Assembly: GCA_033439295.1 (NCBI GenBank)
Contig: JAVTLE010000023.1
Location: forward strand, 1,240,001-1,304,000
Origin: Deuterostichococcus epilithicus
Taxonomy: Eukaryota; Chlorophyta; Trebouxiophyceae; Prasiolales; Stichococcaceae
Length of the DNA: 64,000 nt
Direction of reading: 5' to 3'
Part shown: positions 7,092 to 64,000 of the stretch, piece after piece
How the letters are laid out: each line of letters begins with the position of its first letter
Numbering within the stretch: position 1 is the stretch's first letter
Notes under the pieces: generated by a model
Seen by the model: only the letters and a program-made list of their open reading frames with translations
Databases searched by the model: none
Told to the model about the DNA's origin: nothing
Position numbers and translations under genes: made by a program

Positions 7092-10000
7092 CTATCGGAT
7101 TCGATGGATGAGGCGCCTCTCGCGGCGGTGCTCCATTTCCCCCTGCAGAAAGTCGCACCAGCAGCTTTGGTTGCTGCATCGCTTCACCACCATCGGCAGG
7201 AAGCTCCTCTTACGGTGTCATGATGCAGCTGCCCCGAGGTCTCCTAGAGCCAAGCTTTTGCAGCTGTAAAGCAGGAAAGGGGGCGGCGGGGGGGGAGCTG
7301 TTGGTCGCNGCCGGCTGCTGGGGAAACCATGTGCCAGCGAATTGTTGGGCGGTTGTTTACCTGGCTGGCCATGAAGGCGAGCGCGCGGCGCACCAGCTGC
7401 TCCGAGAGTCCCACCCGCACCAGCTCGTCGACCAGCTTGCGCTCGCTGACGTGTGCGCCGATGGCCACCCGCCGCCGGATCTGCGCCTCCACCTTGTGAA
7501 GCTCCTCCCGCTGCTCCTCGCTGAAGACGACGGCATCCATGATGCCTGCAGGGTTTCAACACCCTGCTATTACTATACTATCACTACTACTGTTCTACTG
7601 CTCTACGACTACCTTGTGATGCTCCTCCCGCTGCTCCTCGCTACAGACCACCGCACCCATGATGCCTGCAGGGGTGATATGGTGAGGCTTTGGGCTGGGC
7701 AGCCCAAGCAAATAGGCAATCCAGCGGTTCTCCGGCGTTCCCTCTGCAACTCCCTCACATCCCTCCCAGCTACCAAGTTGACGGCATCCGTGCTAGCGTG
7801 CTCGACTGGGCTGACGGCTCGCCCACACGGTACCCGCTGACCTCGACGTCGGGATTTGTGTCGGCAATAGCATTACAAAGAGAAACCCACCTGACGTGTT
7901 GGAACCAGGGTTGCAGAAGAGCCAAAACCCACCCGACTTGACGGCGTCCATGGTGGAGTGCTTGAACAGCCGGATGGCCTCCCGGATGTGGTCCTCGGAC
8001 GCCTCGTTCTGCAGCGCCATGCGCGCCAGCGACTCTGCCAACCGCACGATGGCCTCCAGCTGCCGCACCGTGATGGGCACCGCCGGCAGCTCACCGGAGC
8101 CCTCGGACGCGACCTTGCGCACCTGCGGCAATATGGCTTAGTGTGCTTGGAATACAGCAATGCCACGTGAGCGAGTTTGGCTGGTGCAGTCGGCAGCGGG
8201 CCGCTGCGTCGCCGCAGGGGCGCGCGCGCCAAGCGGAGATGACTGCCCTGCTGCTTGCACTTGCCTGTGCCGGCGCAGACATGGTTGGCCCGCTTGCCGC
8301 TGGCACGACTTTGCAACTCCTTCACTTCATGCTGCCAGGCCCGTGTACCATGATACCCTAAACCCATGTTTGCACCAGTCTACTGTCCTGTTGCATCAGG
8401 TGGTCACATGCACGACAACCTATCTAAACCCCCTAAACCCTAAATCCACGCACCTCCTCACGCAGGGACACGTACTCGGCGGCGAGCGTCTCGCCAGCGC
8501 GGCGGCTGATGCGCGGCGCCACGCGCGATCGCGTGTACTCCAGGTACCGCTTCAGGAAGCGCTCGCTCTGCAGCGGCGGCGGCAGGAAGCAGTTCGGCAG
8601 CAGGAAGTTCAGCGGGGACCGTTTCACCAGGCAGGGACTTACGGTGTGAAGCACCTTGGCGACTGACGGTGGCGCTGTGCCGGCGCAGGGGTGCCGCCTC
8701 TGCCGCTTCAGAACCGCTCGCTCGCACTGACCGTCCCGCGCAGGTGATGAGGAGGGGGTTGGCGCTCGGCCCGGAAATTTATTCTCCTCTGTGTCACAGC
8801 CATCCAGACGCAAGCCGGAAGGTTGAAATTCCCGGGCTTTAGGGTTTAGAGTGTAGGGAGCGCGCACCGCAACCTGCTCCTCGTTGGGGCCTGTCTGCGC
8901 GCCCGCGGTGCGGTGGATGTTGAGCACGTGGTTGGCGATGCGCAGGTCGTGCGCCTCACTCCGCTCGTCCTTGACGATGAAGATCAGGTCGAATCGCGAC
9001 AGGATGGTGGTCTGCGGGTGCGGGATTCGCGCTGTCGGTTGGTTGCCGCCCCAGAAGCAGCTGGCGTCGGACCGCACGAGGCAGCGTGGTGCTGGAATTG
9101 CAGGCAGCGGCGGCGGCGGCGGCAGGCACGAGCGACGTGGGCAGCGGCATGCGTGATCAGCGGGCAGCTGTGCCGCCTCCCCCGCAACCTCTTGCGGCAG
9201 GCCCCATGCAGCGCCCTTCTGACGCGGTACTCGTTGCAGACCTGGCAGAATGCACTTTTCAATCGAGGTCCGGAAAAACCACGGACCTGCAGGTCGATGT
9301 TCTCCTGCGCCGACTTCATGTCGTCGTAGCGCCCTGACGGCGGGTTGGCGGCCGCCAGCACCGCCGCGCGGCTCTTGAGCATTGTCGTGATGCCCGCCTT
9401 GGCGATGGAGATGGTCTGCTGCTCCATGGCCTGGCGCGTGCAGCACACACAGGTGCTCAAGTTGATGCATCTACAAGCAAGCAGCCACAGGGCTGGAGCA
9501 GGCGGCCAGGCTGTATCCCAGCCTGCCGCAAGCTCGGCGCTTCCTGTCTGAGACGGTGTCGCACCTTGTCAAAGTCAGCATCAACCAGTGTCCAGCACGC
9601 GAAGCACCAGAGCAAGATTCCAGGGACAGACTGGCGAAACCCCCGCTCGACCTTGCAGCTGGCAGATTATGATGATCAGATTATATCATTATATGACATC
9701 AGCACCTCGTGGATGGCTACACGGTCCTCGGGGCGCATCTTGTCGAATTCGTCGATGCACACCACGCCGTTGTCCGCCAGCACCATGGCGCCGCCCTGCA
9801 GCCGCAGTCGAAGGCTGGGTTGGCAGTTGTGCAGGGTGTTCTGTTCCCGTAGCTTGGCGCTTGATGTGAAGCGCGTGCCACTGGCGAAGCTCACGTGTCG
9901 CAGCCTCGCCGTCTCTTCGGACTGCAAATACCATGCAACAGTGCGAGCGCCTGGAGCCAGGAATCTCGGCAGGTCTGCAGGACTTCCGTGCCCGAAATCA

Positions 10001-63237: not shown

Positions 63238-64000
63238 TCACTCCCAGCCCTCCTCCATAACGCCCTGGTTGCTGCTCTCCTCCTCGGCGGTGTCGGCCCT
63301 CGCGAGCATGCTGCCAAGGTGCGCCGATCCAGGCTGCCACTCGCCGCTGGGCGCTGCCGGCGTCTCCACACCCTCGCCGTCGGCGCCGCTGCCGGAACTC
63401 TGCTCGAAGCCCGCAAAGTCTTGGGCCAGCTGCGTCACGCCAAGATCCGCCAGATCCTCCTGTAGCATGCAGACACAGGGAACTGTTTTCAGCGAGTGAA
63501 CAGCACATTGTGCCGCCCGCCGCGATCACTGGGGCGGTTCCCCAATCCGCCAGATCCTCCTGTAATAAGGAGCGGAGGACGACCGTCTCGTCGTCTGAAA
63601 GTAGAGTGTACCACCTTTCTACGAGCAGTCAACACAGCTCCTGGACCAGCTGCATCACAATCAAGACGCCAGATCCTCCTGCATTCAGTAGCAAGAAAGG
63701 CGACCCTGCAGCGGCGCATCGGCAGATTGGGCCACCTTTTCATCAGCAAACAGCACAAGGAGCTGCTCCGTAGGAGCTGCTCCTCAGGGAGATACGAGCA
63801 TTTATCGCCCAGCTTGGACGTACGGCCATTGCCAAGCCGAAGCATGCCGCCCACCTGTGTGGGCGGCGCGTCCAGCATGTGGCCAGTGCGGCGCAGGAAC
63901 TCCTCGGTGGATTCGATGTAGTGCCCGCCCAGCTCCTGCAGATCCGCGCGCCCCGCCGGGTCTTCCACCTGAAGCGCGGAGTTCGGCGTATCAGCAGCGG
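63238..64000 (-). CDS. Unknown protein, 3' end (runs off right edge)
   Basis: Only the C-terminal part is present and I cannot name the family. An exon at about 63969-63853 reads VEDPAGRADLQELGGHYIES and TEEFLRRTGHMLDAPPTQ, ending at a clear donor (CAG|GTGGGC). The last exon (about 63464-63238) reads EDLADLGVTQLAQDFAGFEQ, then a Ser/Gly/Glu-rich tail ending GVMEEGWE. The join is in phase 0. The intron between them holds two further copies of the last exon's acceptor and first bases. The tail composition suggests a soluble, partly disordered C-terminus. Confidence 0.6.
63539..63562 (-). repeat. Exon-edge copy 1: acceptor plus EDLAD exon start
   Basis: TTACAG|GAGGATCTGGCGGATT copies the real CTACAG|GAGGATCTGGCGGATC near 63443-63466, about 97 bases upstream in gene direction. 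Confidence 0.88.
63655..63682 (-). repeat. Exon-edge copy 2: acceptor plus EDLAD exon start
   Basis: ATGCAG|GAGGATCTGGCGTCTT is a third version of the same acceptor and exon start, a further 118 bases upstream. Confidence 0.85.

Follow-up and report, generated by a model that had tools for sequence, protein, structure and literature searches.

Why do introns in one stretch of a green algal genome carry decayed copies of the very exon edges that they adjoin, and what kind of process could put them there? The stretch is a 64-kb segment of Deuterostichococcus epilithicus (contig JAVTLE010000023.1, positions 1,240,001 to 1,304,000; hereafter the window, in whose positions coordinates are given), for which an initial annotation had reported about 21 affected introns or intron segments in at least seven genes and had proposed tandem duplication of segments spanning a splice site. 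The count came out close, as inspection by hand identified 20 junctions in the same seven genes at which the adjoining exon edge has a decayed copy, of the same sense, in the intron: four in MCM5, one in a prolyl 4-hydroxylase (P4H) gene, four in an Hsp70-like gene, one in a GST gene, five in an NVL-like AAA gene, four in an RRM gene and one in the gene at the right edge, with exon-exon pairs such as those at 24557 and 44215 excluded. A repeat search returned, among others, the pairs 7491/7611 (90% identity), 34582/34681 (81%), 11416/11527 (83%), 56015/56127 (79%), 16276/16339 (93%), 37166/37292 (88%), 57130/57260 (92%) and 56669/56751 (94%). Together with the controls described below, these copies look like the product of a real, recurrent process that respects exon boundaries.

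The window belongs to a 46.8-Mb genome of 21 contigs, has a GC content of 54-67% in 2-kb steps and holds 7 N bases. Splice sites were taken from a small hidden Markov model gene finder trained on the window and 20 genome stretches of 10 kb, labels such as L003, L014 and L016 denoting sampled stretches outside the window. Pfam searches recovered MCM, 2OG-Fe(II) oxygenase, Hsp70, AAA, RRM and GST genes among the gene models, as well as a PsaO domain in one of them, and the gene finder erred by placing mini-exons on some copies and by joining PsaO and the RRM gene in one model. MCM5 and NVL are names taken from the initial annotation, with Pfam supporting MCM and AAA only, and the name prolyl 4-hydroxylase is backed by PDB matches of one 37-aa exon (E ~0.003), although an unrelated protein scored higher there via several weak repeats.

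The copies exceed what controls deliver. In the window, 70 ungapped direct-repeat segments (score at least 15), including simple repeats (CAG, GCA, CTCTCC) and protein-repeat-like exon pairs, were found at offsets of 15-400, against 0 at offsets of 5000-5385. Comparing introns with their own flanking exons, a check proposed in the initial annotation, bore out the excess: at a score of at least 14, the own downstream exon start was copied in 24 of 459 usable introns (0 for the other-exon control, 3 for the reverse complement) and the own upstream exon end in 17 of 459 (0 and 1, respectively). Under a stricter definition, 34 of 569 introns carried a copy, 13 of 118 in the window and 21 of 451 outside it, showing that the phenomenon recurs beyond the window at a thinner rate; the genome-wide rate lies nearer the outside figure because the window was flagged for being rich. 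A further 54 kb, of which 20 kb adjoin the window, was fetched later and analysed with a frozen gene model, yielding 6 pairs with an offset of at least 60, of which we read 4 as exon-edge copies and 2 as exon-internal or unclear, none being intron-only. Repeated hits at one junction also occurred, at 63443/63543/63662 and 26980/27185/27300 in the window and at 5650/5799/5918 in L003.

The copies keep to the strand and to the side of their source. Direct matches outnumbered inverted ones by 36 to 1 in the 569 introns, and around 265 exons of at least 120 nt, 26 copies were in the intron adjacent to their source edge, against 0 in the one across the exon. Acceptor copies sit upstream and donor copies downstream, as first described. 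At offsets of 60-220 and a score of at least 15, we counted 43 exon-to-intron pairs versus 5 intron-to-intron pairs in pair areas of 15.4 and 13.8 million, corresponding to densities per million position pairs of 2.78 for exon-intron and 0.36 for intron-intron pairs within one intron, and 2 of the 5 (L016 3772 and window 63548) belong to exon-edge cases. With offsets of 15-350 and a score of at least 16, the counts were 41 exon-intron, 24 exon-exon and 12 intron-intron, most of the extra intron-intron pairs having short offsets. We simulated copying from random local sources with intron decay and indels (score at least 16), assuming 0-0.30 substitutions per site, indels at 0.1 or 0.25 times that rate and lengths and offsets drawn from the observed lists; this predicted intron-intron to exon-intron ratios of 1.13-1.15, the exact values depending on those settings; against this prediction the observed 5 versus 43 amounts to an about tenfold deficit of intron-to-intron pairs (P = 6 × 10⁻¹⁰). 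Source midpoints lay at a median of 28 nt from the exon edge versus 41 nt for random sources (Kolmogorov-Smirnov p = 2.6 × 10⁻⁵), with 1 of 28 sources more than 50 nt from the edge versus 39% of random ones.

To define what is copied, we assembled 42 exon-intron pairs (score at least 16, offset at least 60, entropy filter), 25 acceptor-side and 17 donor-side, of which 19 are in the window. They represent 40 different junctions, with a single copy common to two L014 pairs, so the pairs are not fully independent; pairs with a modelled exon on both sides were excluded (16 listed, of which 13 were inspected along with one same-exon pair, not all of them clear). Identities of 74-100% and offsets of 63-267 came close to the 75-93% and 60-190 given in the initial annotation, and this spread, with the recurrence of copies in the genome sample and the held-out sequence, agrees with its view of a habitual process that has left copies of different ages. 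The copied exon ends measure about 20-70 nt and usually lie 80-160 nt from their source. In 10-nt bins, copy and source were 0.57-0.75 identical over the first 40 nt of the exon on the acceptor side and 0.47-0.76 identical over the last 40 nt on the donor side, and identity at 10-20 nt into the intron was 0.22-0.32, compared with 0.23-0.29 for the background, in both the older and the younger class; in the 12 younger acceptor pairs, intron positions −20 to −10 were 0.22 identical versus a background of 0.26. The blocks consist almost wholly of exon, and the claim that the copy includes the splice site holds for part of the set: 27 of the 42 ungapped blocks include 1-15 nt of intron, 15 include 0 nt and stop short of the splice site, and none includes more than 15 nt. 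Random-source simulations for younger pairs gave 64-68% with 0 nt, 26-28% with 1-15 nt and 6-8% with more than 15 nt, and 27 of 42 in the middle class departs from an expectation of 0.28 in a binomial test (1 × 10⁻⁶). Of the 25 acceptor copies, 14 retain an intact CAG, and of the 17 donor copies, 8 retain an intact GT. Alignments extended into the intron side reached p ≤ 0.05 in 1 of 42 pairs, the L016 case, and in two donor pairs the copy takes in 12-13 nt of intron (p = 0.059 for both).

Given that the intron side falls to background beyond about 10 nt and that 1 of 42 extensions is significant, contiguous tandem duplication does not explain the set, although it occurs in single cases, and here the initial annotation has to be revised. 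An ordinary contiguous duplication across a splice site, after which the outer site stays in use, the intron gains one unit and the intron parts diverge beyond recognition, would fit the placement and the offsets of the copies, the contiguous L016 pair at offset 101, the 27 nt of intron in an L023 pair and the about 21 nt at the GST junction, and a single case in potato RdRp, as excerpted from PMC4974935, likewise duplicates an intron end with an exon start. However, the intron tails of younger pairs should still look alike unless they evolve faster than the copied exon, and intron-only duplications are nearly absent. Contiguous duplication is therefore strongly disfavoured for the set, its rescue requiring introns whose evolution outpaces that of the exon pieces copied into them several-fold, and we regard it as rather improbable.

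The age and decay of the copies bear on two further explanations. Mismatch by codon position was 0.141, 0.157 and 0.211, and nonsynonymous codons numbered 141 versus 154 ± 6 under neutrality (P = 0.023) with 64 synonymous versus 52, a pattern close to that of a free copy facing a constrained exon, with nearly neutral decay. Counted by eye, the 43 offsets were spread over the three frames as 15/13/15. Since the copies lie inside introns of the gene models, save for mini-exons modelled on some of them, they lengthen introns. Selection could in principle preserve the copies because they act as weak exons or offer decoy or alternative splice sites, such that only the edge with its splice site stays recognisable after an old duplication. 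The recognisable part is indeed an exon edge with a splice-site core, and in-frame stops are missing, but change is near neutral at all three codon positions, third positions differ by only 0.21, making the events look too young for saturated intron tails, the offsets are spread over all frames, and the tally of intact CAG and GT gives no sign of strong upkeep, so we consider selective preservation very unlikely. Protein-coding use of the copies was tried and rejected, conservation of the substituted residues not being significant (P = 0.18). Alternatively, two diverged alleles joined in one sequence by the assembly would show like exons and unlike introns, and the 7 N bases in the window could be counted in favour of such an artefact; yet the differences are not coding-like (nonsynonymous 141 versus 154 neutral), ages vary, some junctions have three copies and the same pattern occurs on many contigs, which leaves an assembly or haplotype artefact barely plausible.

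The spacers between copy and source, 22-242 nt long in the 42 pairs, are mostly unlike their flanks, and filler and old intron tail are indistinguishable in such data. BLASTN of the 42 spacers, run among themselves and against the sequence sample, found no shared element family; spacer-spacer matches longer than 15 nt joined fragments of the same event only, and matches at E ≤ 0.001 were obtained for 4 of 42, namely the telomere-like P4H spacer, L003 267 and two that matched their own junction. The spacer that recurs in the sequence sample is the telomeric one. A local origin of the spacers was considered and discarded, the top scores being, in our reading, mostly continuations of the duplicated blocks, second copies or the one contiguous case. 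Introner-like transposable elements with target-site duplications would also leave direct repeats around a mostly unrelated insert, and most reports of them concern fast-evolving lineages, green algae included, according to the excerpted text of PMC9860276. With no spacer family, with duplications of about 20-70 nt against the 3-9 bp given there for target sites, and with copies mostly well inside introns rather than at the opposite end, an origin from such elements seems scarcely credible. Staggered breaks with long overhangs, both ends of which are filled in together with filler, would yield repeat, filler and repeat, the survivors being those that carry a splice site in the repeat. The absence of an element family among the spacers, the one telomere-like spacer, the repeated rounds at some junctions and the 4-12 bp staggered-break repeats described for Daphnia neointrons in the available part of PMC4202315 all fit. 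However, such breaks should also leave repeats within introns away from exons, at odds with the 5 versus 43 pairs, and neither the rarity of intron-only events nor the limit of 15 nt of intron in the 42 blocks is explained; 15 of the 42 ungapped blocks lack a splice site, though later deletion or indels could cause some of these, and in acceptor cases the first acceptor would keep the original intron tail and should be preferred. We therefore consider staggered breaks unlikely.

Exon boundaries exist as such only at the RNA level. A process that follows them in sense thus either uses transcript information or is filtered by splicing. Taking these observations together, we tentatively favour, at a little short of an even chance, local copying by error-prone break repair in transcribed genes with endpoints that follow exon boundaries. 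A break in a transcribed intron would be mended by error-prone repair that copies a nearby template, or by a duplicated overhang with filler; exon ends, often with 1-15 nt of the adjoining splice site, would be copied in sense into the adjoining intron, leaving mostly unrelated sequence between copy and source, and the copies would then decay nearly neutrally and lengthen the introns. Transcript or splicing information would probably take part, since the endpoints of the template or the cut follow exon boundaries. We infer both the break repair and the involvement of RNA from the patterns described above. As to the form of the template, spliced mRNA or cDNA was rejected as a source: the outer flanks of the copies do not look like the exon next to them (median p = 0.52, with p ≤ 0.05 in 3 of 42), and we judged two of the three matches to be mini-exons modelled on the copy, the third (L003, offset 114) running into the upstream exon. 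The copied intron nucleotides and the lack of a joined neighbouring exon likewise argue against spliced mRNA as the template. A pre-mRNA whose exon ends are protected by splicing factors and whose intron is trimmed to about 0-15 nt could instead serve in cis as the template for repair of intron breaks. RNA templating would be expected to give block boundaries equal to exon boundaries; the boundaries do hug the splice sites, and 27 of 42 blocks include 1-15 nt of intron. We view the pre-mRNA route as distinctly doubtful. If true, it would constitute an ongoing RNA-to-DNA route that lengthens introns and seeds splice sites.

Several observations weigh against transcript-guided break repair. Breaks and the direction of copying are deduced rather than observed, and the splice sites are gene-finder predictions. 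The L016 pair at offset 101 is a clean contiguous duplication that includes the intron tail, and longer intron parts occur outside the 42 pairs, with 27 nt in the held-out L023 pair and, at the GST junction, about 21 nt in a match of 72% identity with gaps. On the donor side, p values of the extension lean low (10 of 17 at ≤ 0.18), so copying takes in a short piece of intron next to the donor. When spacers were compared with flanks under a looser test, p < 0.05 was reached in 7 of 42 pairs upstream and 7 of 42 downstream, most of which we tentatively read as a copied block continuing across an indel or as second copies. Branch-point-like motifs occur upstream of acceptor copies at 0.36, against 0.32 for real acceptors and 0.18 for background (n = 25), which is easier to reconcile with acceptors that once worked than with inserted pieces. 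Of the 42 spacers, one alone is clearly telomere-like (P4H, an 18-nt run; the next best has 7 nt). Finally, in-frame stops number 0 in 464 codons of the copies versus 6.8 expected (P about 0.002); some copies may have been read, or chance may be at work, but plain neutral decay does not predict this lack.

No system that we compared matches on all counts. Intron gain or growth by tandem genomic duplication is the Rogers model, treated in a review (PMC3443670) and exemplified by potato RdRp (PMC4974935), in both cases as far as the excerpted texts go. The potato case resembles ours in that a direct copy of an exon start with its acceptor lies upstream of the used acceptor and exon sequence ends up in an intron, whereas there the intron side is duplicated, a new intron is made and the case is single, and here the intron side is recognisable in 1 of 42 pairs and the copies are frequent. 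Daphnia neointrons, in the portion of PMC4202315 at hand, share direct repeats separated by unrelated sequence and repeated rounds, but their exon repeats are 4-12 bp, unlike the about 20-70 nt at the exon edges of existing introns described here. Introners (PMC9860276, in excerpt) share direct repeats beside inserted sequence in genes and differ by forming element families with 3-9 bp target duplications, where we find no spacer family and copies away from intron ends. In human cells, RNA-templated break repair is reported to leave whole-intron deletion as a scar (PMC12065846), and end joining in human and yeast cells is reported to be steered by the sequence of transcripts (PMC11390984), again according to partial texts; either would bring exon-boundary information to a broken gene, although neither partial text mentions exon edges copied into introns. 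A literature search that left subscription journals largely uncovered, and that drew on partial texts, found no report of habitual exon-edge copies in introns, which is not proof of absence, and exon repeats in introns, which may have been mentioned for trebouxiophyte genomes, were not found in the available portions of PMC3446292 or PMC12636532. In the sample outside the window, 21 of 451 introns, or roughly one in twenty, hold a decaying but still recognisable copy of their own exon edge, and the share is larger within the window; introns thereby lengthen and gain decoy splice sites by a frequent and datable process in one genome. The boundaries follow exons, of which plain DNA-level duplication should know nothing, raising the question of whether transcript or splicing information shapes intron growth.

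In the window, the individual copies are distributed as follows. MCM5, on the minus strand, has a real acceptor (8 nt) with the first 55 nt of exon 7361-7545 at 7491..7553 and its intronic copy at 7611..7673 (offset 120, 90%; intron-tail similarity not significant, p = 0.12). An exon start region at 10783..10822, in which the block begins 19 nt into the exon, recurs at 10898..10937 (offset 115, 80%), the exon end up to the donor at 11527..11584 recurs at 11416..11473 (offset 111, 83%) with the donor GT changed to GC in the copy, and the exon end plus donor at 11947..11968 recurs at 11847..11868 (offset 100, 91%, 22 nt). The prolyl 4-hydroxylase gene, on the plus strand, has its real acceptor (GCAG) and exon start at 16339..16379 and the copy at 16276..16316 (offset 63, 93%), separated by the telomere-like 22-nt spacer 16317..16338 with its 18-nt exact telomere-repeat run. 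In the minus-strand Hsp70-like gene, the acceptor and exon start at 17378..17423 are copied at 17455..17500 (offset 77, 76%), the exon end region 17767..17802 at 17653..17688 (offset 114, 83%), the exon start 17955..17995 at 18108..18148 (offset 153, 80%; partly modelled as a small exon) and the exon end region 18609..18639 at 18510..18540 (offset 99, 84%). The minus-strand GST gene has an exon start region at 26980..27005, an intronic copy at 27185..27210 (offset 205, 85%) and a weaker third copy at 27300-27325 (73%), and the spacer matches 26951-27038 over 96 gapped columns (72%).

Among the five junctions of the minus-strand NVL-like AAA gene, the acceptor and exon start at 34582..34643 are copied at 34681..34742 (offset 99, 81%), the exon start 35742..35772 at 35933..35963 (offset 191, 87%), and the exon start 36270..36335 at 36431..36493 as one copy in two ungapped blocks with a 3 nt shift (offsets 158 and 161, 82% and 88%). 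The acceptor and exon start at 36694..36718 recur at 36812..36836 (offset 118, 92%), and a block that begins 17 nt into its exon, 37166..37207, recurs without the splice site at 37292..37333 (offset 126, 88%). In the plus-strand RRM gene, two acceptors with exon starts, 56127..56178 and 56614..56644, have copies at 56015..56066 (offset 112, 79%) and 56467..56497 (offset 147, 84%), the exon end region 56669..56702 (−45 to −11) is copied without the donor at 56751..56784 (offset 82, 94%), and the exon end with donor GTGAGC at 57130..57168 is copied with its donor at 57260..57298 (offset 130, 92%). The right-edge gene, on the minus strand, carries two intronic copies of the exon start region 63443..63473, at 63543..63573 (offset 100) and 63662..63692 (offset 219).

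The copies cluster by gene, with a within-gene pair statistic of 68 versus 22.8 ± 7.2 over 63 genes, a value that none of 5,000 shuffles reached. Copies per gene showed weak positive correlations with two measures, the GC content of third codon positions (GC3; Spearman 0.37, p = 0.012) and the coding score (0.34, p = 0.024), in six uncorrected tests on proxies for expression, and showed no significant correlation with exon GC, intron GC, intron length or exon length, so that these four were discarded as causes of the clustering.

Short interstitial telomeric repeats (CCCTAAA, about 1.5-3 units) were listed at 16 places in 288 kb, namely at 8356, 8431, 8849, 16321 and 57624 in the window and at L003 7700, L004 9747, L005 2440, L009 9675, L010 212 and 6206, L014 390, 4953 and 8727, and L017 4770 and 9614 in the sample. 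By gene model, 15 of the 16 lie in introns, 8 in sense and 8 in antisense, often near an acceptor. The sequence CCCTAAACCC occurs 5 times in the window versus 0.02 expected, and the 17-mer CCCTAAACCCTAAACCC, counted together with the telomere arrays, reaches 484 occurrences genome-wide, against 0 for a mirror control; among the contigs listed, C1, C3 and C4 end in plant-type telomere arrays, which with the PsaO domain mark a photosynthetic eukaryote. Interstitial telomeric repeats are reportedly tied to break repair by telomerase, according to a title cited in PMC6410037, and telomeric runs in introns far above chance thus favour break repair in introns generally. In sampled introns, the branch-point-like words CTGAC and CTCAA are enriched 12-55 nt before acceptors, as are the telomere-like words AACCC, ACCCT and AAACC, and telomeric runs may have been recruited as branch sites.

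An Rfam search of the window gave no match, and a 1.3-kb piece compared with plasmids gave none either, an uninformative result. In the trained donor profile, C accounts for 8% at the second base of the intron, which may mean that GC-AG introns are unusually frequent here or may be a gene-finder artefact. The PsaO gene and the gene with three RRM domains, merged into one model by the gene finder, lie head to tail at 52291-62789. A CTCTCC tandem repeat containing N bases at 55592-55704 is perhaps a weak spot of the assembly, and a perfect two-copy 19-bp tandem repeat at 47026-47065 lies at the start of a gene predicted at 45125-47030 on the minus strand.

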